Of a stretch of DNA of 64,000 bases, positions 4,227 to 26,073 are shown piece by piece; positions within the stretch are counted from its first letter, which is position 1; every line of letters starts with the position of its first letter. Under the pieces are notes generated by a model that was given only the letters and a program-made list of their open reading frames with translations, was not told the DNA's origin and did no database searches. The DNA is taken from assembly GCA_944392695.1 (NCBI GenBank), contig CALXXN010000010.1:1-64000 (forward strand), given 5' to 3'. The stretch is from an uncultured Spirochaetales bacterium (lineage in GTDB: Bacteria; Spirochaetota; Spirochaetia; Sphaerochaetales; Sphaerochaetaceae). The position numbers and the translations under genes were made by a program.

Positions 4227-5558
4227 TTAGCCGAAATTCTTCAGCAGCTGGGCCTGCAATTTCTTGTTGTTCATGACCTTCCTCAACATCAGCTTCTGCT
4301 TCTCAAAGTTCTTCAGGAGCCTATTGACGTCGGCCACGGATGTTCCAGATCCCTTGGCGATCCTCTTGCGCCGGCTGGGTCCGATGATGCGGTAATTGGC
4401 ACGCTCGAACTTCGTCATCGACTTGATGATCGCTTTCTGGACCTCGAACTCCTTCATGTCGATGTCATCTTCCTTGATGTTCCCCTTGGCTCCGGGGATC
4501 ATCTCGATTAGCTTGTCGACAGAACCCATCTTCGACATGTTCTCCAGCTGGTCCAGATAGTCCTGGAGGTCGAAGGTGTTCTTCTGCATCTTGCGGGCGA
4601 GCTTCTCAGCCTCCTGCTCGTCATAGACCTGCTGGGCCTTCTCGACGAGGGAGACGATGTCACCCATGCCCAGGATGCGCTGGGCTATGCGCTCGGGGTG
4701 GAAGACCTCGAGGTCCTCTGGCTTCTCACCTGTACCGATGAACTTCAGCGGCTTGCCAACGACGCTCTTGAGTGAGAGCGCGGCACCACCCCTGGTGTCT
4801 GAATCGAACTTCGAGAGGACTATGCCGCTGATACCAACCTTGGTCTCGAACTCCTGGGCGATCGCCACGGCGTTCTGACCTGTCATCGCGTCAGCGACGA
4901 AGAGTGTCTCATCTGGATTGACGGCATGGGCGATGTCCTGGATCTCCTTCATCAGGACCTCGTCCAGGTGCATCCTTCCGCTTGTATCGACAATCAGTGT
5001 GTCATAGAGCTCATGACGGGCTGTGGAGAGGGCCTCACGTGCGACCTTGACCGGATCCTTCTCACCTGGGATCGAGAAGACACGCACACCGACTTTCTCT
5101 CCAAGGAGCTGCAGCTGTGTGACAGCGGCAGGGCGCACGAGGTCGGCAGCGACGAGCATGACCTTGCGGCCCTGCTCCTTCGTCAGCTTGAGTGCGAGCT
5201 TTGCAGCCGTCGTCGTCTTACCAGAACCCTGGAGGCCCATCATCAGGATGACTGATGTCGTGTCCTTGCCCTTGAGGCGGAGTCCCTGGTTGTCGCCACC
5301 AAGCAGGTCGACCATCTTGTCATAGACGATCTTCGTGAACTGCTGGCCTGGGTCGACAGACAGGAGGACCTTCTCACCAAGGGCCTCTTCCAGCGTGGAG
5401 TTGACGAACCTCCTGACGACACGCAGGTTGACATCCGCGTCGAGCAGGGAGAGCTTGATCTCCTCAACTGCGTCACGGATGTTCTTCTCTGTGATCTTTC
5501 CCTTCCCCGAAAGGGTTTTCATTACCGAGGAGAACTTCACGCTCAGGTTGTCGAACAT
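4227..5558 (-). CDS. ffh: Signal recognition particle GTPase Ffh
   Basis: Binds signal sequences and 4.5S RNA and delivers ribosomes to FtsY at the membrane. The N domain covers about residues 1-95 and the G domain 96-295 (GLQGSGKTTTAAKLA P-loop, DTSGRMHLDEVLM, SKFDSDTRGG). The Met-rich M domain follows (KMGSVDKLIEMIPGA, the RNA-binding RRKRIAKGSGTSVADVNRLL). 443 residues is typical. No 4.5S RNA gene was seen in the window. A promoter lies in the 58-bp gap to smc and extends into the end of smc. Confidence 0.98.
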   Translation of the reverse strand: MFDNLSVKFSSVMKTLSGKGKITEKNIRDAVEEIKLSLLDADVNLRVVRRFVNSTLEEALGEKVLLSVDPGQQFTKIVYDKMVDLLGGDNQGLRLKGKDTTSVILMMGLQGSGKTTTAAKLALKLTKEQGRKVMLVAADLVRPAAVTQLQLLGEKVGVRVFSIPGEKDPVKVAREALSTARHELYDTLIVDTSGRMHLDEVLMKEIQDIAHAVNPDETLFVADAMTGQNAVAIAQEFETKVGISGIVLSKFDSDTRGGAALSLKSVVGKPLKFIGTGEKPEDLEVFHPERIAQRILGMGDIVSLVEKAQQVYDEQEAEKLARKMQKNTFDLQDYLDQLENMSKMGSVDKLIEMIPGAKGNIKEDDIDMKEFEVQKAIIKSMTKFERANYRIIGPSRRKRIAKGSGTSVADVNRLLKNFEKQKLMLRKVMNNKKLQAQLLKNFG

Positions 5559-5620: not shown

Positions 5621-8463
5621 GATTTGGTCTTCCTCTTGCCATCCGCGTCGAACTCAACCTTCTCGTCCGATTCATCGAGTATGACGGCCTCTCCTGCGAT
5701 GTTCGCAAGCTTGTAGGTCACGGTCGTCGAGACACCTGCCTCCATCTGGGTGACACCAAGCAATGAGGTCGAGCCCATGACCGTATGGGTGTTGTGCGTG
5801 ATGATGATGAACTGGCTCGTCTGGCTGAAGTCCTCAAGCACGGAGAGGAAGTAGCCGATGTTCCTGTCATCAAGCGCGGCATCGATCTCATCGAGGATGC
5901 AGAAGGGGCTGGGCTTTACAAGGTAGGTCGCGAACAGGAGGGCGACAGCCGTCATGCTGCGCTCGCCACCAGAGAGCAGTGTCAGGTTGATCAACTTCTT
6001 GCCAGGGGGCTGTGCGAATATGTTGATACCACTTGTCAGCACATTCTCCTCATCCTCCAGCGTGATCTCGGCACGACCTCCATTGAACAGGCGTTTGAAC
6101 ATCATCTGGAAGTTGTCGCTGATCTGCTTGTAGGTCTCGAGGAACATCTGCTCGCTCTTCTCCTGGATTTCAGCAAGGACCTTCTCCAGGTCCGCCTTGG
6201 CCTTGTTCAGGTCGCTAAGCTGCTTGGTGTAGAAGTTGTAACGCTCCTCGGCCTCCTTGAAGTCGTCAACAGCCATATGGTTGATGTTAGGGCCAAGGGC
6301 GGCGATCTTCTTACGGACCTCGGCGAGCTCGTTCTCGACCAGGACCTGCTCAGGAAGGTCCTGGCTCTCCAGGACATCCTGGTACTCGTTCAAACTGCGG
6401 TTGTATGTGTTGTAGAAGCTCGTGAAGAGGGCCTTGGCTTGCTCATCACTGTTCTGCTGCCACATCTCGTTCTTCTCGATCTCGCTCTTTATGTTCTGGA
6501 TCGTCTCTATCGTCCTGTTCTTGGCACCCTCACGGTCATTAATCAGGTTGTTCAGGCGCCCGATTTCAGCCATGACATCACCAAGCTCCTCCCTCATCTC
6601 TGCAATCGAATCGTTGAGGGCCTTCTTCTCCTCATCGGTCTGGATGATCGAGTCATTCGTCTCACTGATGCGCTTGGTGTAGTAGGCGACATTGCTCTCG
6701 GCATCATCGATGGAGACGCTGTTCTCCTCGATTGAACGGCGGATGTTCTGGATGACGAGCTCTGCTGATTCGATGCCGGCCTTCATGGATGCGATACGTA
6801 CCTCCATGCCGCTGACAGTCTCCCTCAGGCCCTCGATATCCTCATTGAGCGAGGCGATGCGCTCACGCACCTGGGTGATCCTGGCGCGGCTGTGCTCGAT
6901 CGCCTTCCTCTGGACCTCCTCTTCCTCCGTGATCTTCCTTTTCTGTGTCAGGAGGCCCTCAGGGGCGAGGAGGGAGTCGATGAAGGGAGGGATCGTCGAA
7001 CGGAAGATGTTGAACGCCCCCTCGAGCCCGTCGATGGAGGACAGGATGGCATCAAGGTCGCCACGCACCTTCTCCCTGATATCCACACCCTCTGGCACAG
7101 TGGAATAGAAGGAGATCTTCTCCTCCAGGCGGTGGCGTAATGTGGCAAGCGCCTCACGGAAGTCCGCCTCCCCTGCACTGCGCTTGGCATGGGAGTACTC
7201 CTCCCCCATCTTCTCATCAAGTTCAAGGGCGAGGTCTTCGATGACAGCCTTGAGCTGGCCCGACAGCTCTGTGATACGCCCCTCCGCCTCGATGATGGCG
7301 GCTTCCTCTGTCCGGACCTCCTCCTCAGCCTGGGAGAGGGCCTTCTGGTCGTCCTCGATTGTCGCCTTGGCACGGCGAACATGGGAAAGCGACTCGTCAA
7401 GGACATCCTTCTTGTCCTCGACAGAGGCGAGGTTCTGTTCGAGCTCGACCTTGTAACGGTCTATGATGCCGCGCAGGGATGCGAGCTTGGACTCGTTGTC
7501 TTCCTTGTTGCGTATGTATTCACGGTACTGTTCTTCAAGTATGTGGATACGGTCGCCCTTGCTGTTGATCTCGGCTTCGGCACGGTTGATCTTGTTCTGT
7601 ATGCTGAAGGAATAGCTGTTCTTCTCACGCAGGGCGGCGCTCTCCTCCTCTATACCGCTCTTGTAACCTTCAAGCGAGGCCGTCAGGTTCTCAAGCTGGC
7701 GGCGGTGTTCCTCGTTCTGCTGTTCACGGATCTGCTTGAGGTTGGTGAATGTCTGCAGCTTCAAGGCATGGAGCTGGACATCAAGCTCCATCTGCTTCTT
7801 CATCAGCTCATTGTAGGCCATGGCCTTCTCAGCCTGGTTCTTGAGCAGGGTGTAGCTGCGCTTTTCAACCGAGATGAGGTTCTCGACCTGCAGGATGTTC
7901 TCGTCGGTACGCTCGATCTTCTTCTGCGCCTCGTTGCACTCGACCTTGAAGCGTGAGATGCCGGCGGCTTCCTCGAAGATGTACCTCCTGTCCTCAGGAC
8001 GTGAGGAGAGGATCTGGTCGATCTTGCCCTGCTCCAGGATCGAATATGCGGACTTGCCGATACCAGTGTCGAAGAAAAGCTCCTTGACGTTCTTCAACAG
8101 GCAGCGCTGCCTGTTGATGTAGTACTCGCCCGCACCCTCGCCTGCACGGAAAACACGGCGGCGGATCTCGATCTCGGCCAGGTCGGTCTGGAGGATGTGC
8201 TCGCTGTTGTCGATCGTCAGCGTGACTTCAGCGAACTGCAATGGCTTGCGCTTGTCGGTGCCATTGAATATGACGTCCTCCATCTTGCCTGCACGGAGCG
8301 TCTTCGTGGACTGCTCCCCAAGCACCCACTTGATCGCATCCACGATGTTGGACTTGCCACAACCATTGGGACCAAGAAGGCTGGTGATACCATCCGCGAA
8401 GTCGATATGGGTCTTGTCGGCGAAACTCTTGAATCCATTCAAATCAAGGCTCTTAAGGAACAA
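5617..8463 (-). CDS. smc: Chromosome segregation ATPase SMC, short form
   Basis: Condensin ATPase that compacts and separates chromosomes. The N-terminal head has the P-loop SLLGPNGCGKSNIVDAIKWV (about residues 30-49). The C-terminal head has the signature LLSGGERSMTAVALLF and the Walker B FCILDEIDAALDD. Long coiled coils lie between. At 948 residues it is well below the roughly 1,190 of Bacillus SMC. In the middle (about residues 400-500) I cannot find the Gly-rich hinge; there is only a short helical stretch (FYSTVPEGVDIREKVRGD and GAFNIFRSTIPPF). It diverges from rnhB. Identity is firm; the missing hinge is described in the findings. Confidence 0.95.
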   Translation of the reverse strand: MFLKSLDLNGFKSFADKTHIDFADGITSLLGPNGCGKSNIVDAIKWVLGEQSTKTLRAGKMEDVIFNGTDKRKPLQFAEVTLTIDNSEHILQTDLAEIEIRRRVFRAGEGAGEYYINRQRCLLKNVKELFFDTGIGKSAYSILEQGKIDQILSSRPEDRRYIFEEAAGISRFKVECNEAQKKIERTDENILQVENLISVEKRSYTLLKNQAEKAMAYNELMKKQMELDVQLHALKLQTFTNLKQIREQQNEEHRRQLENLTASLEGYKSGIEEESAALREKNSYSFSIQNKINRAEAEINSKGDRIHILEEQYREYIRNKEDNESKLASLRGIIDRYKVELEQNLASVEDKKDVLDESLSHVRRAKATIEDDQKALSQAEEEVRTEEAAIIEAEGRITELSGQLKAVIEDLALELDEKMGEEYSHAKRSAGEADFREALATLRHRLEEKISFYSTVPEGVDIREKVRGDLDAILSSIDGLEGAFNIFRSTIPPFIDSLLAPEGLLTQKRKITEEEEVQRKAIEHSRARITQVRERIASLNEDIEGLRETVSGMEVRIASMKAGIESAELVIQNIRRSIEENSVSIDDAESNVAYYTKRISETNDSIIQTDEEKKALNDSIAEMREELGDVMAEIGRLNNLINDREGAKNRTIETIQNIKSEIEKNEMWQQNSDEQAKALFTSFYNTYNRSLNEYQDVLESQDLPEQVLVENELAEVRKKIAALGPNINHMAVDDFKEAEERYNFYTKQLSDLNKAKADLEKVLAEIQEKSEQMFLETYKQISDNFQMMFKRLFNGGRAEITLEDEENVLTSGINIFAQPPGKKLINLTLLSGGERSMTAVALLFATYLVKPSPFCILDEIDAALDDRNIGYFLSVLEDFSQTSQFIIITHNTHTVMGSTSLLGVTQMEAGVSTTVTYKLANIAGEAVILDESDEKVEFDADGKRKTKS

Positions 8464-17200: not shown

Positions 17201-17203
17201 GTT

Positions 17204-17273
17204 AGTTCCTAGGGGAATCGAACCCCTATTTAGAGACTGAGAATCTCCCGTCCTAACCGTTAGACGAAGGAAC
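17204..17273 (-). tRNA. tRNA-Glu (anticodon CTC)
   Basis: Minus strand GTTCCTTCGTCTAACGGTTA at the 5' end; anticodon loop TTCTCAG reads CTC; T arm GGGGTTCGATTCCCC; 3' acceptor AGGAAC plus T. No CCA is encoded. Confidence 0.93.
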
Positions 17274-17280
17274 CATCTTG

Positions 17281-17351
17281 CTGGGATGGAGGGATTCGAA
17301 CCCCCAAAGGCAGAACCAGAATCTGCAGTGTTACCATTACACTACATCCCA
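17281..17351 (-). tRNA. tRNA-Gln (anticodon CTG)
   Basis: Minus strand TGGGATGTAGTGTAATGGTA at the 5' end; anticodon stem GCAGA/TCTGC with loop TTCTGGT (CTG); T arm around GGTTCGAATCC; 3' CATCCCAG. It is 7 bp upstream of tRNA-Glu, so both form one transcript. Confidence 0.93.
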
Positions 17352-17644: not shown

Positions 17645-20251
17645 TCAACGCTTATCGATAGTGATAGTAACAGGATCTATCAGTTCGTTAGAAATATAAA
17701 TGGTACCAAGACCAAAACCTTCACGTAATTCAGTTGATGGTCGGTCCAAAGAAAGCCATTCAGAGTATTCACCTACAAGACAGATATCTTGATACCGCTC
17801 ACTGGTTGTGAAAGCGGCAGAGACCTCATAACGTGCATCATCATCCAATCCTTCAAGGAAAACCGCCATTGGAAGGTTCTCATACGTTGTTGCAGGAAGC
17901 TCGATAGTCATTGGATCTGCATCAAAAGTCCTGGTGTTCTTAGAAACAGTCTCCTTTTCTGTATCAGATATCTCCCGGATACGGATTGTGTTTGTTTCAC
18001 TGTTGTAAATAGGATAAGGCATGCTGACTATGATGCGGCCATCATGCTTTCCTATATAGCACACAGCAGTATTTGTCTCTTCGTCATAACTGAATGGAGC
18101 AAAATGCTTAATCCTGGCACCTGTATCCAAATTGTAGGCACTTCCGTCACTAATCGAACTGGCTTTCCACCAAGATGGGTATTCACTTGTGAAAGTCATT
18201 TCAAGTACAAGTTCTTCAGACGGATCCGCATCGAAAGTGAAGAGGCCAGGCAGGCTATAAGATTGTCCATCATGACCAATAGCAGTTGGCTCGATGAGCT
18301 CTAGTTCGGCCTTGACTTCACCTTCCCTTGCATAGACGACCATGACAACCGTCATCTCACTTTCATCAAACACATATGTGTTGTTGCCATAGGTGGTGTA
18401 AAGCTCATGGCCTCTATTATCCAATACGATTGGGTATCCATTCCCTCCCTCAGTCGAATCTACTGAAAACAGATAAGGCTGTCCTGTCTTCAAGTCAGAC
18501 AACTTGAAACAGGCAATTGCCATGTATCCATCTTCTGTCTGCAAGAAAAAGTCCGTATCAGAAGCTGATGCTTCAAATGTATCTGATGGAGCAAACTGTG
18601 CGAACTGGATTTGACAGCTGTCAGTGATACCAAAGTCTGAAACATTGACTTCCTTTTCAGTATCAGTGGCAAGGAAACCAATCAGACCATCACGAATCCA
18701 TATGAATTCATCATTATTCCATACATCTTCATTCTCACCAAAGTAAAGGACATAGAATGAACCAGGAGTCAGGTTCTTGAACACAAGCTTGCTGTCCCAC
18801 CTAAGAGTCTCTGCTGCTGACAAGTCCTCTTTCAGCGTTGCTCCATCGACCTCCACTATTGGTTGGTTTATTGGATCAAAGCCATTGGTGCTCAACTCGA
18901 TTGTGACTGTACCTGACATCTTATTCCGATTTCTTACAAATGCATGTTCAAGGATGAAGTTGTCCCGGATATCAATGACTTCCAAGTCATCCAAGCCATA
19001 AGAAGAATAGCCATTTCCATCAGCATTCCGTGAAACAAGGCGGACCCAGAAGCCTCCATCTGGATAATGAGCCCTGACCTTCAAACCATCAAAGCCACCG
19101 CCTTCGAAAATAACTGGCCTGAAGTACTCGGTCTCACTAATCGGAATATCAATAGACATCTTTCCATCATCAGAGAGACCGTCAGTTATATTGACTACGC
19201 AATTTTCAATGTTTGTTTTCTCATTGCCCTCTATTGGACGCAACTTGATTGTACCAGGAGCAGAGATTCCCTCGTCCATGATGATATCAAAGAAGAAATC
19301 CTTTTCCTCATTGCCTACATACAGCAAGAGTGTCCCAGCAGATTCGTCATACTCGAATGGGAAGAGATAGGGCTTGCGCTCCCAATTATTGTCATCAATA
19401 TAACATGGTTCAATGTTCCCATCAGCGACATCATAATCCCAGACATTGTTTGTCCCGATGCTCAACTCAAGTACCATCTCTCCATTGCAATCAGCAGCTG
19501 ACACCTTGTACAAGCCATGGCATGGATTGAGAGGAACCTCTGTGTTACCAATTTTGATGGGATTCTCAAACACTATCTCCTGGGCGAGATTCCCATCCCC
19601 ATCTCCTCTGCGGACAGCTATCTGGCTGAAGATGTAAAGCTTGGAAACATCTTCCAATGAAGTCAGTCCGTATGGTCTGTAGATACGCCAACTGCCATTC
19701 TCACGAATTTCAACTATGCAGCAATCCGACCTGTATCCCCCTCTTCCCGTGACATACTCATACACTCCGACTTCTGACAGGTTGGAAAGACCAAGAGATT
19801 GGATGTCCACCTCATAGTATTCCTCATAGACATCCCATCGATATCCTTCAGATGTATAGGAGTAGAGGGCATGTCCTGATGTGTCCAATTTCAATCCGGT
19901 CTCACTATCAGGTGTGACAGCTTCATACTTGAAGACTGTCACCTGCCCTGTTCCTGAAATGCCAAGCTCCGCACCAGTGAAACTCATGGAAGTAGTAGAG
20001 GCAACGAACAGATGGATATCTGAATTGGACCAATACATATCTGGCAATCTGATTGGGGCAGTGATGCCATAGAGCTCACCAATCTCCAATCCAGTGAGGG
20101 TGACAGTGTCCTCGCTAGAAATCTGAAGAGTGTGAGGCTTACCAACTTCGGGTGTTATCCTATGCTCCTGCGGTTGAGCAGTATCATTGGAGCACGAAGC
20201 CATCAGCAGCACTGCGATGAGTGCTACAAGAACAGTGGCAGCTTTCTTCAT
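17645..20251 (-). CDS. Large lipoprotein A (three-member tandem family)
   Basis: 868 residues from the ATG at 20251, which has AGGAG 8 nt upstream. The N-terminus MKKAATVLVALIAVLLMASC is a lipoprotein signal peptide with the lipidated Cys at 20. The remainder is acidic, beta-rich and has no domain I recognise. It contains repeated blocks: LTGLEIGELYGI near the N-terminus, FKNLTPGSFYVLYFGEN in the middle, and PSEELVLEMTF later, and it ends with VTITIDKR. The same blocks occur in lipoproteins B and C, so the three are paralogues. Surface exposure is inferred. The leader carries a poly-G tract and a hairpin. Confidence 0.85.
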   Translation of the reverse strand: MKKAATVLVALIAVLLMASCSNDTAQPQEHRITPEVGKPHTLQISSEDTVTLTGLEIGELYGITAPIRLPDMYWSNSDIHLFVASTTSMSFTGAELGISGTGQVTVFKYEAVTPDSETGLKLDTSGHALYSYTSEGYRWDVYEEYYEVDIQSLGLSNLSEVGVYEYVTGRGGYRSDCCIVEIRENGSWRIYRPYGLTSLEDVSKLYIFSQIAVRRGDGDGNLAQEIVFENPIKIGNTEVPLNPCHGLYKVSAADCNGEMVLELSIGTNNVWDYDVADGNIEPCYIDDNNWERKPYLFPFEYDESAGTLLLYVGNEEKDFFFDIIMDEGISAPGTIKLRPIEGNEKTNIENCVVNITDGLSDDGKMSIDIPISETEYFRPVIFEGGGFDGLKVRAHYPDGGFWVRLVSRNADGNGYSSYGLDDLEVIDIRDNFILEHAFVRNRNKMSGTVTIELSTNGFDPINQPIVEVDGATLKEDLSAAETLRWDSKLVFKNLTPGSFYVLYFGENEDVWNNDEFIWIRDGLIGFLATDTEKEVNVSDFGITDSCQIQFAQFAPSDTFEASASDTDFFLQTEDGYMAIACFKLSDLKTGQPYLFSVDSTEGGNGYPIVLDNRGHELYTTYGNNTYVFDESEMTVVMVVYAREGEVKAELELIEPTAIGHDGQSYSLPGLFTFDADPSEELVLEMTFTSEYPSWWKASSISDGSAYNLDTGARIKHFAPFSYDEETNTAVCYIGKHDGRIIVSMPYPIYNSETNTIRIREISDTEKETVSKNTRTFDADPMTIELPATTYENLPMAVFLEGLDDDARYEVSAAFTTSERYQDICLVGEYSEWLSLDRPSTELREGFGLGTIYISNELIDPVTITIDKR

Positions 20252-20270
20252 AAGCAAACTCCTTTTATAG

Positions 20271-20304
20271 ACACAAAAGCACCACGGCTTCCTGCCCATG
20301 GTGC
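20271..20304 (-). terminator. Terminator-like hairpin in the leader of lipoprotein A
   Basis: GCACCA (20279-20284) pairs with TGGTGC (20299-20304), followed on the minus strand by TTTTGTGT and then, within a few bases, the AGGAG site and ATG of lipoprotein A. It is well placed to act as an attenuator or to mask the start. Confidence 0.55.
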
Positions 20305-20372
20305 TCTGTGTATTAGTCGTATGGATGTATGTTGTTTTACATTGAAGTCACTGGATGAAGCTAGGAGCGATA

Positions 20373-20382
20373 CCCCCCCCCC
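20373..20382 (-). repeat. Poly-G tract (10 G) in the leader of lipoprotein A
   Basis: Ten consecutive C on the plus strand (G on the coding strand), about 120 bp before the ATG and about 70 bp after the predicted transcription start. Tracts like this change length by slippage; see the findings. Confidence 0.9.
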
Positions 20383-20458
20383 ATTCACCTATCTGCTTGT
20401 ATGAATTGGAATCAATGAATATAGCTTTGACAGACTTCATTCAATTTCCCTTGCTTCC

Positions 20459-20487
20459 ATCCTATGTGAAGAATTTGAAGCGGTCAA
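20459..20487 (-). promoter_or_regulatory. Promoter of lipoprotein A
   Basis: Minus strand: TTGACC (20482-20487), 17-bp spacer, TAGGAT (20459-20464). The whole block, including the TCAATCTTGATTT region upstream and CATTCAATTTCCC downstream, is repeated at 26045-26073. Confidence 0.65.
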
Positions 20488-20522
20488 TCTTGATTTGTAC
20501 AAACAAGCATTGATTACAACTC

Positions 20523-20544
20523 AGCCCACCCCGCAGGATGGGCC
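20523..20544 (-). terminator. GC hairpin downstream of lipoprotein B
   Basis: The AGCCCA arm pairs imperfectly with TGGGCC around CCCGCAGG. It is a near-copy of the hairpin at 17606-17627 and lies 20 bp after the lipoprotein B stop. Confidence 0.5.
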
Positions 20545-20564
20545 GATAAGGAGAAGTGCAGGAA

Positions 20565-23246
20565 TCAGCGTTTATCGATTTCTATTGTCACAGGCTCTTG
20601 AGCTGTCCCCTCGAGGAAGATTGCGCGAAGACCATAGTATTCATCTACGTCAATGCTAGGTCTATCCTTCCCGAGTGAGTTATAACGCCCATACCCTACG
20701 ACAACCACATCGAAGTATCCGTCACTCGATGCTGATACAGTATATCGTGCACCTTCCTCCACTCCATCAAGGAAAACTGCCTTAAAGCCGCTGTCATCGG
20801 CAGTCTTTGTAATCACTTCATGGTCTTCATCAACTTGGACAGTGTTTTCCGTGATGAGTGTCCTTTCGTCATCTGAAATAGGTCTGATGAGGATCTTGTC
20901 CGTCTCAACTCCTCCAAGGAAGGGGTCTCTTAACAGGATTGCTATACGACCATCATAGCGGCCGATATAACAGAGTACAGTAGCAGTGTCTGTATTGCTG
21001 TCAAAGCTGAATGGAAGGAAATCCATCAGGGGTTCTTCACTCTCATAATCGAAGGCCCTGATATAGCTGACACCATGGACACCTCCCCAAGTCAGGTTCC
21101 CACCCTGGAGAGTAATCTCAAGTATGAGTTCCTCTGAGGAATCAGCATCGGCAAAGTAAAGTCCAGGCGCATCAAAATCCTGTCCTTCAGAAGTCAAGGT
21201 TATCGGCAATACAAGTTCAAATGACTCTGTCGACTCTGAGGGACGTTCTGGATCACCACTATCCCGTACTTCGATACGACTGATCAAGATGACTTCCTCA
21301 TCTTCCAACATGTATGAAGAATCAGCATAAAGGCCATCAATCTCATATCCGCTATCAATATCAATGAGATACCAGCTATTAGAGAAACTGCCAGAACCAA
21401 GAGATGTATTTGCCAGCACATGCAAGCGACCTGGTTCTGGAACCCTCATCTTGAAGCAACCAATGACGAGGTCACCTTCATCAGTCTTGGCTATAGCGTT
21501 TTCAGCTTTGGCAACCATGGAAGCTTCTTCGCTTGGAACAAACTTGATGGCTCTGAATTCTGCAGAACCCTCAATGCCAAAACCTGCCGCATCAACGCTC
21601 ATCTCTGTATCAGTTGCAAGGAAGACGAAGAATCCTGGATAGACCTCGATGAAGCGGTCATCAGGCCGTGGCATGTTTTGTCCAAAGTAGAATCCATACA
21701 CATTGCCAATCTCAAGGTTCTCAAAGACCAGCTTGTCGTTCCAGCCGATTGATATTGCCCTAGATAATTCATCTGTCAATGTAGATGCATCGACTCTCAC
21801 TTCTTTTTGTACAACAGGATCAAAGCCTTTAGTGCTGAGCTCGAGCACGAATTCTCCTTTGACACATCCATCATTGCTTATGAACGCATGCTCAAGAATC
21901 CAGTTGCTGTGCCTATCATTCACTTCTCCGCTATCAGAACTATGATTTGCATAACCATAGCCATTAGTATGTCCACTTGTAATCTTGAAGAAGTATGCAT
22001 CAGGGTACAACGCCCTGAGCTGCAATCCTTGATAGGTACGAGGATCATCCCCTTTGAAGATGATAGGAACGAGGAAAGTATCTTCATTAAGAGTGAAGGT
22101 TTCTTCCATGTAACCATCTTGCATCTTGGATAAGTCCACTTCCCTGATAAGATTCCTTTCGTCTTCCGTTATCTCCCTGAGCCTTATTGTTCCAGGATTT
22201 TCAATTGTGGTGTCCTGGACAATGATGTCAAAGATGAAGTCCTCTTCAACCTCTCCTACATAAAGGACAACCTTGTTCTCTGTTTGATCATAGTCGATTG
22301 GGAATAGATAAGGCTGCCGTTTGCCCCTGTTGCCATTATCATCATATGCCACACGGGAGTTGACGGTATTATAGAAGAAGTCGAAATCCCCAATCCAGTT
22401 ATCGCCGATATCGAGTTCGAGAACCATCTCCTCACTATCAGGGCAATCCGCCTTTTCCACCTGGTAGAGCCCTCTGACTGGGGCTATTGTTGTACTTTGC
22501 TCGTTTCCTGCCGCGACCACCGTGGGATTCTGGATTATGATTTCATAATGCCTATCACTATCACCCGATTTGACTATCTGGCTGAAGATGTACAATTCAT
22601 CGTGCTCGTACTCACTCAAGTCGAGGATACCATCCTTGCTGTTATCCCTGAAAGAATATGGATCGTTTGGATCAAGGATTCCAAAGTCAGTATCGAACCG
22701 ACTTGTCCTGCCTCCTTCTCCTACCCTGGTCATATAGTCATATATTGCAAAGCGTTCCAGCTCTAATCCCTGTTCCCTAAGCTCATCAAGTCTTACCACA
22801 TAGAATTCTTCATACGCCCTGCAATGGTAGCCTTCATCATCCCAATACTCATAGGCATGAGCATCATCCATGGTATTGATGACCATGTCATCTTGAGTGA
22901 TGGGATACTCCAAGATGGTCACCTCACTACTCCCAGAAACCCCAAGCTCGGCAGCAGAGAATGTCACATCTGTCCCATCTGACAGCAGGAGCTGGGTTCC
23001 TCCGTTCGTTGGCACCAAGCCTGGAGCAGAGCTACGGGCTCGAGCATCAACACCATGGGCGTTGATGCCGTATAGCCTATTCGGTGTAAGCCCGGTCAGG
23101 GTGATCGTGTCACCTGCAGATACAGTTATCTCCTGAGATGTTTCTGTTGGGCTGATTTCCAGATTCCTAGGTTCTGGAGTCTCCTGGGAACATGATATTA
23201 CAAGTAATAATGAAATGATCACCAGAATAGTGGCAGTCTTTTTCAT
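20565..23246 (-). CDS. Large lipoprotein B (three-member tandem family)
   Basis: 893 residues from the ATG at 23246 (GGGGAG 8 nt upstream). Signal peptide MKKTATILVIISLLLVISC with the lipidated Cys at 19. It shares with A and C the N-terminal block TLTGLTPNRLYGINAHG, a DGTDVTFSAAELGVSGSSEV strand pair, FENLEIGNVYGFYFGQN, VDAAGFGIEGSAEF, DSSEELILEITLQG and the C-terminal VTIEIDKR. It starts 14 bp after the stop of lipoprotein C and has no separate promoter, so both depend on the upstream leader. Function unknown. Confidence 0.85.
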   Translation of the reverse strand: MKKTATILVIISLLLVISCSQETPEPRNLEISPTETSQEITVSAGDTITLTGLTPNRLYGINAHGVDARARSSAPGLVPTNGGTQLLLSDGTDVTFSAAELGVSGSSEVTILEYPITQDDMVINTMDDAHAYEYWDDEGYHCRAYEEFYVVRLDELREQGLELERFAIYDYMTRVGEGGRTSRFDTDFGILDPNDPYSFRDNSKDGILDLSEYEHDELYIFSQIVKSGDSDRHYEIIIQNPTVVAAGNEQSTTIAPVRGLYQVEKADCPDSEEMVLELDIGDNWIGDFDFFYNTVNSRVAYDDNGNRGKRQPYLFPIDYDQTENKVVLYVGEVEEDFIFDIIVQDTTIENPGTIRLREITEDERNLIREVDLSKMQDGYMEETFTLNEDTFLVPIIFKGDDPRTYQGLQLRALYPDAYFFKITSGHTNGYGYANHSSDSGEVNDRHSNWILEHAFISNDGCVKGEFVLELSTKGFDPVVQKEVRVDASTLTDELSRAISIGWNDKLVFENLEIGNVYGFYFGQNMPRPDDRFIEVYPGFFVFLATDTEMSVDAAGFGIEGSAEFRAIKFVPSEEASMVAKAENAIAKTDEGDLVIGCFKMRVPEPGRLHVLANTSLGSGSFSNSWYLIDIDSGYEIDGLYADSSYMLEDEEVILISRIEVRDSGDPERPSESTESFELVLPITLTSEGQDFDAPGLYFADADSSEELILEITLQGGNLTWGGVHGVSYIRAFDYESEEPLMDFLPFSFDSNTDTATVLCYIGRYDGRIAILLRDPFLGGVETDKILIRPISDDERTLITENTVQVDEDHEVITKTADDSGFKAVFLDGVEEGARYTVSASSDGYFDVVVVGYGRYNSLGKDRPSIDVDEYYGLRAIFLEGTAQEPVTIEIDKR

Positions 23247-23260
23247 GACAATCTCCCCTT

Positions 23261-25849
23261 TCATTGCTTATCAATGCTGATGACGAACGGCTCCTTTGAA
23301 TAACCAGCAACACAGATGGTCTGGAGACCGCTGTTCCGATTGAACGTGTAATCAAGCTTACCACCAGCATGATGATATCCATTTTCATCACTGATGAAGA
23401 CATCGATGTCCTCAGGAAGAGTCGTCGCTGAGAAATGCAAAGGCCCAGCCACCCGCTGGTCAATGAATCTGATATATGGCATGCCTGTACTCATATCGAC
23501 AGTCAATGTTTCATCTCCATCGATAATAAACTTGTTCTTACTCATCATGGCTGCTTGTTCATCAGACAGAGGGTACACCCTTATGGAGTCTGGCTCCGCA
23601 ACAGGTTGCTTCTCGAAGCTTACAATCAAGTCCTCATCATGAGGTCCGATATAGAGCTGTCCTGCCCTCTGTGCCACAGACAATGGCATACGGTCGACAA
23701 AGAGGCTTTCGTCCAATCCAACCATCCTGATTTTACAGAGGCTGCCAATGTCATCAGCAGAAGTGTCTGTTTTGAATGTCATATCCAAGACAGTCGGCTC
23801 TGTACTGGCTTTCAGCAAGTAACATGAAGAGGCATCCAAATCCTGGTATTCCTCATCAAGAGGCTGCATTTCAACAAGCTTGAACGAAGCCATGACAGGA
23901 TCTTCACCGATGACTGTCCTCTGCACAAAGACATATGAGCCCTCATCGAATACATAGGTGTAACCATCAAGACGGTTCAGCCAGTAACCATTCATCTCGA
24001 AGACATAGTCAGTACAACGGCTGCTTGGAGTGACAGATCTTTCAATCTTGTACACCCCGGGTCCTGGCACATCAAGCTTGAAGCAGTCAATCACGACATG
24101 GCCATCTGAAGTCTCTGCAATGGCCCTGTCTTTTGTGAGGTCGGCCTCCAAGTCTTCCTGCATCTCGAAGGAAACACAGCTCAAGGAGACTTCATCACGA
24201 ATGCCGAAAACAGCAGCTTCTACTTCAAGTCTGTCACTTGTGGCAAGGAAGATGAAGAAACCATCCTCAACCTCTATGAAACGGCTATTTGGGCTCGTTG
24301 CCCCTGATCCAAGATTGAAACCATAGACATTGCCAGGGACAAGGTTGGTGAAGGTGATTGTCGTACCAAAGTCCACATTACCCTGTTCTGAAGGTTCGTC
24401 TATCTGGAGCCTGCTGGCATCTACAATCAGTTCATTCTGGACAGGGCCTCCATGACTTTCCGAGCTGAGGGTGAGATTGATAGTCCCATCCCTACCTGAT
24501 GTGTTCCTGGCGACCGCATACTCAAGCTGTTGTCCATCAGGAGACCATGCCTCCCCTCTCCTCAGGTCGACGCTGGAAACACTTGTGCCTCCAGAGCTTG
24601 ATGCGACGACCATGAGGTTCTGTCCTCCATCAGAGTACGTTGCAAGAAGGCTCAGGTCAGGATATTTGCCATTGTCGTTCTCGAAGATGACAGGAGTAAA
24701 CCACTCAGAGGCACTGAGATCGATGGCAACTTCCATGAAACCCTCATTTCCAACCGTATCCAGGTTAACATGCTGTATCCGATCCTTCTCATCCTCAGTG
24801 ACAGCCCTGGTCTTTATCGTCCAAGGTTGGACATCACCTGTTGTAGTGATTTCGAAGACAAAGTCCTCTTCAACAGGACCTGCATAGAGGACTACAGTGT
24901 TTTCATCTTTGTTGTAAGACAATGGGAAGACATAGCGCTTACGGAGTCCACCATCCGCAAGACGGGAATCTATACGCCTGCCATTCAAATCAAAGTCTTC
25001 AATACTGTTTCCGCCAAGACCAATCTCGATTGCCATCTCATCATCAGCCCCAAGGCCAGTAGGTCCTGTTAGGAAGACTGCATTGTCATCAGTGATTGTC
25101 ACCTGTTCTTCAAACTCAAGCTCGACGGGGTTTTCAATAAAGACCTCCTGCTGGATTTCCCCTTCAATCAACACGACCTGGTTGAAGACATGTATCACGT
25201 CATAATCTTTGGAAGAAAGATTCAACACACCACTCTTCTTGATGCTCTCAAGATTGCCATGACCTTCCTCCTGGTAGAAGATGTCGTAGTTGGTGCTAGA
25301 TGTGCCATGCCCATCATACCTGCGGAATTGGACGACATTGTTACGCTTGAGACCCGTAACCTCATTAAGCCTTATCGGGTAATACTCCTCGTAGACATAA
25401 CACCTACGTCCCTGGGAATCTGTATATCGATAAAGATACTCCTCCTTCGTCGTATCGATGAGCATGTCGTTATCGATATCAGGTTGTGGAACATACTCGA
25501 CAACTGTCACATTCCCATCACCCATGATGCCGACATCAGCGCCAGAGAATGTGACATCACTGCCATCAGAGAGGAAGAGCTGGGTCCCACCATCTGTGCT
25601 TATGAAAGGTGTGTCCCCTGCTGCCCTGGAAGAAGCCTGGGCACCATGTGGGTTGATACCATAGAGGGTCCCTTCCTTAAGACCTTTCAATGTAACTGTA
25701 TCATTGCCAGATACTGCTACGACCTGGATCGACTCATCCAGGACGACATCAGTGTTCTGGGTTGGAGCTTCTGGCGTGTCTGGTGAACAGGATGCCAGGA
25801 GCATGAGTGTGATTACGATGGTCGAGATGATAGAGACAGCTTTCTTCAT
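23261..25849 (-). CDS. Large lipoprotein C (three-member tandem family)
   Basis: 862 residues from the ATG at 25849, chosen for the GGGGGGA site just upstream and the signal peptide MKKAVSIISTIVITLMLLASC (Cys at 21). The first third is closest to lipoprotein B (LKGLKEGTLYGINPHG, DGSDVTFSGADVGIMGDGNV); FTNLVPGNVYGFNLGSG and VEAAVFGIRDEVSL follow. It ends in FVISIDKQ. It is first in a two-gene operon with B. The leader is a duplicate of the lipoprotein A leader and includes a 9-G tract. Probably a surface lipoprotein; no enzymatic motif seen. Confidence 0.85.
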   Translation of the reverse strand: MKKAVSIISTIVITLMLLASCSPDTPEAPTQNTDVVLDESIQVVAVSGNDTVTLKGLKEGTLYGINPHGAQASSRAAGDTPFISTDGGTQLFLSDGSDVTFSGADVGIMGDGNVTVVEYVPQPDIDNDMLIDTTKEEYLYRYTDSQGRRCYVYEEYYPIRLNEVTGLKRNNVVQFRRYDGHGTSSTNYDIFYQEEGHGNLESIKKSGVLNLSSKDYDVIHVFNQVVLIEGEIQQEVFIENPVELEFEEQVTITDDNAVFLTGPTGLGADDEMAIEIGLGGNSIEDFDLNGRRIDSRLADGGLRKRYVFPLSYNKDENTVVLYAGPVEEDFVFEITTTGDVQPWTIKTRAVTEDEKDRIQHVNLDTVGNEGFMEVAIDLSASEWFTPVIFENDNGKYPDLSLLATYSDGGQNLMVVASSSGGTSVSSVDLRRGEAWSPDGQQLEYAVARNTSGRDGTINLTLSSESHGGPVQNELIVDASRLQIDEPSEQGNVDFGTTITFTNLVPGNVYGFNLGSGATSPNSRFIEVEDGFFIFLATSDRLEVEAAVFGIRDEVSLSCVSFEMQEDLEADLTKDRAIAETSDGHVVIDCFKLDVPGPGVYKIERSVTPSSRCTDYVFEMNGYWLNRLDGYTYVFDEGSYVFVQRTVIGEDPVMASFKLVEMQPLDEEYQDLDASSCYLLKASTEPTVLDMTFKTDTSADDIGSLCKIRMVGLDESLFVDRMPLSVAQRAGQLYIGPHDEDLIVSFEKQPVAEPDSIRVYPLSDEQAAMMSKNKFIIDGDETLTVDMSTGMPYIRFIDQRVAGPLHFSATTLPEDIDVFISDENGYHHAGGKLDYTFNRNSGLQTICVAGYSKEPFVISIDKQ

Positions 25850-25864
25850 TGATCCCCCCGATAT

Positions 25865-25901
25865 GACAAAAGCGCCAGGGCCATGGTGATGGCTGTGGCG
25901 C
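25865..25901 (-). terminator. Terminator-like hairpin in the leader of lipoprotein C
   Basis: GCGCCA (25872-25877) pairs with TGGCGC (25896-25901), with an inner GCC/GGC pairing, followed on the minus strand by TTTTGTC and then the ribosome binding site of lipoprotein C. Same placement as at 20279-20304. Confidence 0.55.
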
Positions 25902-25951
25902 CTTGTTTTCGTTCTTGATGATGCTGGGTCTTGTCTGACTAGGAATCCCCG

Positions 25952-25960
25952 CCCCCCCCC
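25952..25960 (-). repeat. Poly-G tract (9 G) in the leader of lipoprotein C
   Basis: Nine consecutive C on the plus strand, preceded by CCCCG. It is about 100 bp before the ATG and about 80 bp after the predicted start, the same spacing as the tract at 20373-20382. Confidence 0.9.
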
Positions 25961-26044
25961 ATTGCTGTTTTGGAGGGACCAGCTGGCTGGTGTTGGATTG
26001 ATGGATGATTCAGAGACAGGCATCATTCAATTTCCCCTGAATCC

Positions 26045-26073
26045 ATCCTAGGTGAAGATCGGGGAGCGGTCAA
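26045..26073 (-). promoter_or_regulatory. Promoter of the lipoprotein C-B operon
   Basis: Minus strand: TTGACC (26068-26073), 17-bp spacer, TAGGAT (26045-26050). It is closely similar to the lipoprotein A promoter over about 65 bp. Confidence 0.65.

Follow-up and report, generated by a model that had tools for sequence, protein, structure and literature searches.

Poly-G tracts in two duplicated leaders of spirochaete lipoprotein genes: candidate phase-variable transcription attenuators

The window analysed here, a 64,000-nt stretch of spirochaete DNA, carries three large lipoprotein genes on its minus strand: gene A, and genes B and C in a two-gene operon (Table 1). The three are paralogues (29-36% identical), each with a lipoprotein signal peptide, and searches of Pfam, NCBIfam and PDB sequences gave no noteworthy match for their products. 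The AlphaFold model of the lipoprotein is a nearly all-beta chain (pLDDT 75, pTM 0.52), and because the Foldseek matches obtained with it were unspecific (TM ~0.1, rmsd mostly 16-40), we claim no function for it. Genes A and B are each preceded by a leader with a long poly-G tract; both have intact frames with their own ribosome site and signal peptide downstream of the tract, which does not lie within the lipoprotein frame. Gene A is separated from an ABC-F ATPase gene by two tRNA genes (17203-17351, minus strand), a tRNA-flanked site that could favour gain of the lipoprotein cluster.

Table 1. Positions of the lipoprotein genes and of the elements in their leaders (window coordinates).
Feature	Position	Strand	Remarks
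Lipoprotein gene A	17645..20251	-	868 aa; lipobox LLMASC
Lipoprotein gene C	20565..23246	-	second gene of the operon; 893 aa; without a tract of its own
Lipoprotein gene B	23261..25849	-	862 aa; leads the two-gene operon
Putative promoter, leader A	20459..20487	-	TTGACC (20487-20482), spacer of 17, TAGGAT (20464-20459); inside the block conserved with leader B
Putative promoter, leader B	26045..26073	-	TTGACC (26073-26068), spacer of 17, TAGGAT (26050-26045); duplicated block
Predicted ribosome site and start, leader A	20438..20452	-	AAGGGAAATTGA-ATG (ATG 20440-20438); same element starts a lipoprotein gene in G012 (L188); pattern in 16 genomes
Predicted ribosome site and start, leader B	26024..26038	-	AGGGGAAATTGA-ATG (ATG 26026-26024); block conservation; pattern in 16 genomes
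Leader ORF A, as assembled (G10)	20348..20440	-	30 aa; ends 43 nt upstream of the hairpin
Leader ORF B, as assembled (G9)	25850..26026	-	open through the hairpin, in frame with the lipoprotein (59-codon extension)
G10 tract, leader A	20373..20382	-	
G9 tract, leader B	25952..25960	-	
Terminator-like hairpin A	20270..20304	-	GCACCATGGGCAGGAAGCCGTGGTGC + TTTTGTGTC; -15.9 kcal/mol; rank 14 of 351 in the window
Terminator-like hairpin B	25863..25901	-	GCGCCACAGCCATCACCATGGCCCTGGCGC + TTTTGTCAT; -17.3 kcal/mol; rank 10 of 351 in the window

The two tracts are the only runs of at least 7 G or C in the 64-kb window. If transcription starts about 7 nt past the -10 of the conserved block, as we infer, they begin ~70 nt (A) and ~78 nt (B) into the transcript, and the lipoprotein start codons, at 20251 and 25849, follow 121 and 102 nt after the respective tracts. 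The sequence-only reading from which we set out had put the tracts 70-85 bp past the start, in line with these values, its positions for both tracts and its TTGACC-17-TAGGAT blocks were correct to the base, and its approximate distances from tract to ATG (100-120 bp) were right. Leaders A and B share a 68-nt block that is 84% identical (E = 2.7e-14) and has the layout AATCAAGATTGACCGCT-(7)-TCTTCAC-N-TAGGATGGA-(5)-GGGAAATTGAATGA, while the rest of the two leaders is dissimilar. Taken singly, the TTGACC/TAGGAT hexamers do not exceed chance as promoter predictions (9 sites against 14 expected from shuffles), and the promoter call for both leaders therefore rests on the conservation of the block; from this duplicated block we infer a promoter upstream of the leader ORF in each case. 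A DNA search of relatives for similar leaders returned none, only the start-codon part of the block in one sister species (G012), and an Rfam scan of the sequence had no hit above threshold other than the two downstream tRNAs, so that no known RNA element is assigned to the leaders. Among possible copies of the locus from other strains, viral contigs gave no match and genome contigs matched two other species only.

Two features common to both leaders were overlooked in the sequence-only reading, namely an ATG within the block and a terminator-like hairpin between tract and gene. The leader ATG lies ~18 nt past the -10 and is preceded by AAGGGA or AGGGGA. Both ribosome sites are weak: among random 18-mers, 29% and 19% equal or exceed their pairing with the anti-SD sequence. 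The sites of the lipoprotein genes themselves are strong in B and fair in A. The start-codon block TAGRATGGNNNNNRGGGAAATTNAATGA (pattern TAGRATGGnnnnnRGGGAAATTnAATGA) occurs in the 16 genomes at three sites, A, B and one lipoprotein gene of G012, all with zero mismatches, which is partly by design as the pattern was built to include G012; the reversed pattern, used as a control on the same 16 genomes, had no matches. By our own estimate, the chance of a 22/28-letter match beside a tract is less than 1 in 1000. The homologous lipoprotein of G012 (L188, G012:C1:205884-206005, assigned to the same family by profile match) has the block ATG as its own start codon, with a G10 tract 89 nt inside that frame; at this length the assembled gene is out of frame (OFF). 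Since the block ATG starts the lipoprotein in G012, the block appears to work as a promoter plus translation start, and the leader ATGs of A and B are thus probably used for translation as well. A run of six G forms the ribosome site of gene B (CGGGGGGATCAATG; 25855-25862, minus strand) and is possibly a second slippery site.

Both tracts fall inside the predicted leader ORF, 58 nt (A, G10) and 66 nt (B, G9) past the leader ATG, and the length of the tract modulo 3 decides whether the leader stop lies 37-56 nt before the hairpin or past it. In leader A a tract of 10 places the stop 43 nt, and a tract of 11 places it 56 nt, before the hairpin; with 9 or 12 the frame runs through the hairpin to a TGA that overlaps the lipoprotein ATG (ATGA). 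In leader B a tract of 8 or 11 gives a stop 37 nt before the hairpin, and a tract of 9 (the assembled length) or 10 carries the frame past it, with 9 and likewise 12 being in frame with the lipoprotein. This frame pattern is not significant in itself, as a switchable open frame is present in 20% (A) and 58% (B) of shuffled leaders.

The hairpins of both leaders are followed by TTTTGT and end 27 nt upstream of the lipoprotein ATG in A and 22 nt in B, with moderate U-tails (TTTTGTGT and TTTTGTCA). Their stems stand in the same place and are unlike in sequence, with one A-U/G-C pair exchange (GCACCA/TGGTGC against GCGCCA/TGGCGC). In a scan of both strands of the 64 kb they rank among real gene-end terminators, and they are the only strong hairpins in 5' leaders that have no upstream gene or tRNA end to explain them. 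Because the gene upstream of B is divergent and gene C carries a hairpin of its own (~20546-20521; poor U-tail), neither of the two leader hairpins has to serve as terminator for another gene. By their anatomy, we regard them as putative intrinsic terminators between leader ORF and gene at both loci. Read on the plus strand (25863-25907), hairpin B is the top-ranking terminator-like site of the window (rank 1) and may stop antisense transcription towards the divergent gene.

We examined poly-G tracts in the rest of the genome and in the genus. In the 2.31-Mb assembly of the same genome, exact run lengths number six of 7, two of 8, five of 9, five of 10 and one of 13 nt, a bimodal tail with an excess above 8; counts that fall and then rise are the pattern of repeats kept at a slippery length. 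Nine of the 11 long tracts lie in or before genes for lipoproteins or surface glycans, as judged from protein sequences in the stretches of the assembly that surround the tracts. From the 16 genomes of the genus we collected 98 distinct tracts of at least 9 nt (15 genomes had any), and 32 of these are followed, within 160 nt on the G strand, by a lipoprotein start. Of the 32, 22 have a TTGACA-like hexamer (at least 5/6 matches; 19 perfect) 0-13 nt upstream, compared with 9% of random positions, and these 22 read as promoter-spacer switches like that of Treponema pallidum tp0126. Intragenic tracts are also common in the genus and occur within members of the A/B/C lipoprotein family (G005, G012). 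On this evidence the long G tracts of the genus are real contingency loci, and the cross-genus comparison lends good support to the phase variation of lipoproteins by poly-G slippage that the sequence-only reading had proposed. The window loci themselves are very probably phase-variable, by whatever route.

As to the route, the closest known counterpart is the pilus leader of Streptococcus gallolyticus. There, a GCAGA repeat lies in the leader ORF of pil1 and pil3 (Danne et al. 2014, PMC3894217); in pil1, expression is low when the leader stop lies 39-49 nt upstream of the terminator and high when it falls inside the terminator or beyond, and mutants and chloramphenicol support a switch by ribosome-mediated antitermination (PMC3894217). 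The window leaders resemble pil1/pil3 in their putative promoter, the predicted leader ORF with its repeat and weak ribosome site, and the putative intrinsic terminator before a surface-protein gene. As in pil1, the stop falls either shortly before the hairpin (43 or 56 nt in A, 37 nt in B) or past it, according to tract length modulo 3. Given this point-by-point match, an attenuator of this kind is what we judge most likely, and we lean, by a modest measure, towards each leader being a phase-variable transcription attenuator.

Under such a mechanism, the promoter would yield an mRNA that opens with a short leader ORF, whose ribosome site and ATG are conserved in both copies. A slipped-strand change of one G in the tract within this ORF would shift the leader frame, and the intrinsic terminator would stand between the early leader stop codons and the lipoprotein start. 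With a short frame, ribosomes would come off 37-56 nt ahead of the hairpin, the terminator would form and transcription would end (OFF), whereas in the long frame the ribosome would trail the polymerase through the hairpin, the terminator would be blocked and the lipoprotein gene would be transcribed (ON). The long frame of leader A would also couple translation through its ATGA overlap with the lipoprotein start, and that of leader B would be fused in frame to the lipoprotein. The assembled genome would thus have A (G10) OFF and B-C (G9) ON. This account fits well the tracts, the block, the leader frames, the hairpins and the start codon of the sister species, all of which are directly observed, and it would add to them leader translation, termination, switching and surface exposure. 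Against it, two of the three frames of leader B pass the hairpin, and the in-frame 59-residue extension before the signal peptide of B might disturb export. A pattern search with hairpin check across 395 genomes of the class returned no convincing further instance of the leader architecture, which thus lacks an independent replicate.

A different route would be a hidden second promoter at the tract, with tract length setting promoter strength, as is usual before lipoprotein genes of the genus. In T. pallidum, poly-G tracts of 7-11 nt lie upstream of the outer-membrane protein genes tprE/G/J/L and tp0126, and at tprL transcription starts 4 nt past a tract that varies between 7 and 11 G (PMC7864442). 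The window tracts are like these in being spirochaete poly-G tracts before genes for surface or outer-membrane proteins, the -35-like hexamers before 22 of the 32 lipoprotein tracts show that such promoters are the rule in the genus, and TATCGC directly follows tract A. Nevertheless, no -35 hexamer (at least 4/6 matches) was found within 13 nt of tract A or B, no -10-like hexamer directly follows tract B, and neither tract lies between a -35 and a -10; a second promoter at the window tracts, tried as a candidate, was rejected for want of -35/-10 elements around either. Moreover, the better promoter lies upstream, duplicated and conserved, and a promoter at the tract would leave both leader hairpins unexplained. 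We consider this route unlikely. The treponemal analogy drawn in the sequence-only reading accordingly holds for the genus, where other loci match the tp0126 spacer type, but not for the window loci, which have no adjacent -35: the T. pallidum tract lies in the promoter, upstream of the transcription start, and the window tracts lie inside the predicted transcript.

It is somewhat less probable again that phase variation is purely translational, the leader ORF acting by coupling (ATGA, A) or as an N-terminal extension (B) with no termination involved. The ATGA overlap of leader A and the in-frame fusion of leader B at G9 or G12 are what such a scheme would call for, and the intragenic tracts of the genus and of the A/B/C family provide a precedent. 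However, both lipoprotein genes own a ribosome site, and terminator-like hairpins that are kept in place though not in sequence would be left without a role. A further possibility, which we hold improbable, is that tracts and blocks are non-varying by-products of recombination among lipoprotein genes: recent copying could indeed account for a block shared between paralogues, but not readily for the excess and non-random placement of tracts across 16 species, and runs of 9-10 G fall within the range that varies in T. pallidum (7-11 G at tprL, PMC7864442). Least probable is length-dependent RNA folding or polymerase pausing in an untranslated leader, as the sequence-only reading had it, for although other parts of the leader can base-pair with the G tract, one base alters folding little, leader B is no more structured than its shuffles (z -0.82), leader A is moderately so (z -2.2) largely through the terminator hairpin, and the conserved ribosome site and ATG would go unexplained. 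Of that proposal, an effect of slippage on polymerase passage fits the attenuator reading; the likely device is the frame of the leader ORF together with an intrinsic terminator, not folding as such.

The attenuator proposed here would differ from pil1/pil3 in several respects. Its repeat is a mononucleotide G tract and not GCAGA, its targets are spirochaete lipoproteins and not pili, it is present in two copies at one locus over paralogues, and its ON leader overlaps the gene start in A (ATGA) and fuses in frame in B; furthermore, the function of pil1/pil3 was shown by mutants, whereas the window system is known from its anatomy. As in the trp and his leaders, a ribosome on a leader peptide would decide whether the terminator forms, but the signal would be a heritable repeat length and not stalling at amino-acid codons; an antiterminator hairpin as in those classical attenuators was not identified in the window leaders. 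In Helicobacter pylori, a variable G tract in the leader of tlpB is read by the small RNA RepG. The window loci share with tlpB a G tract in a transcribed leader; unlike in tlpB, where RepG acts in trans, nothing points to such an RNA at the window loci.

We know of no earlier report of a mononucleotide leader-peptide attenuation switch, and a library search returned none. We see an even chance that a poly-G switch of this kind arose in one spirochaete species, where a module of promoter, start codon and tract was set before a terminator and then duplicated, giving paralogous surface lipoproteins two switches that act independently; sister species, as we read their loci, achieve this through tracts in promoter spacers and within genes. 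If this is true, slippage-driven transcription attenuation has evolved twice and is not peculiar to streptococcal pili, its second origin being in a distant phylum, where it uses the simplest repeat possible. One gene family would then couple a G tract to expression in three ways (promoter spacing, reading frame and terminator control), so that the steps between these modes could be followed. The attenuator reading also predicts which tract lengths are ON and which are OFF, and metagenome reads would show these lengths directly.

Several other tracts seen in the course of this work deserve mention. In the same genome, a G13 tract (L011, G000:C3, 5573-5585) lies in a TTGACA-21-TACTAT spacer before the gene of a 1075-aa lipoprotein and appears to be a promoter-spacing switch that is too long (OFF). 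At L012 (G000:C4), two tandem and very similar lipoprotein genes each carry a tract just ahead of the start, 10 or 8 nt long and read as C on the coding strand (4984-4993 and 6365-6372). Two G10 tracts at L014 (G000:C16, 5243-5252 and 9762-9771) occupy the extreme 3' ends of sugar-transferase-like and acetyltransferase-like genes in a polysaccharide-type cluster, where tract length would alter C-terminal tails or coupling to the next gene. G9 tracts inside acyltransferase-, asparagine-synthase- and glycosyltransferase-like genes, named by eye (L010, G000:C2, 5261-5269 and 12085-12093; L013, 5030-5038), are likely frame switches of surface glycans. Among relatives, a homologue of the lipoprotein family at G005:C37 (L066/L172) is split by an internal G10 tract, its frame being lost in the assembly, and a neighbouring lipoprotein on that contig has a G9 tract in its signal peptide region. 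Three contig ends of G001 (L165, L166 and L167) carry a common sequence of ~70 nt that ends in GGGGGTCAGTTCA and is followed directly by a G9 tract; it is possibly a promoter-like element, repeated or mobile, at which the assembly breaks.
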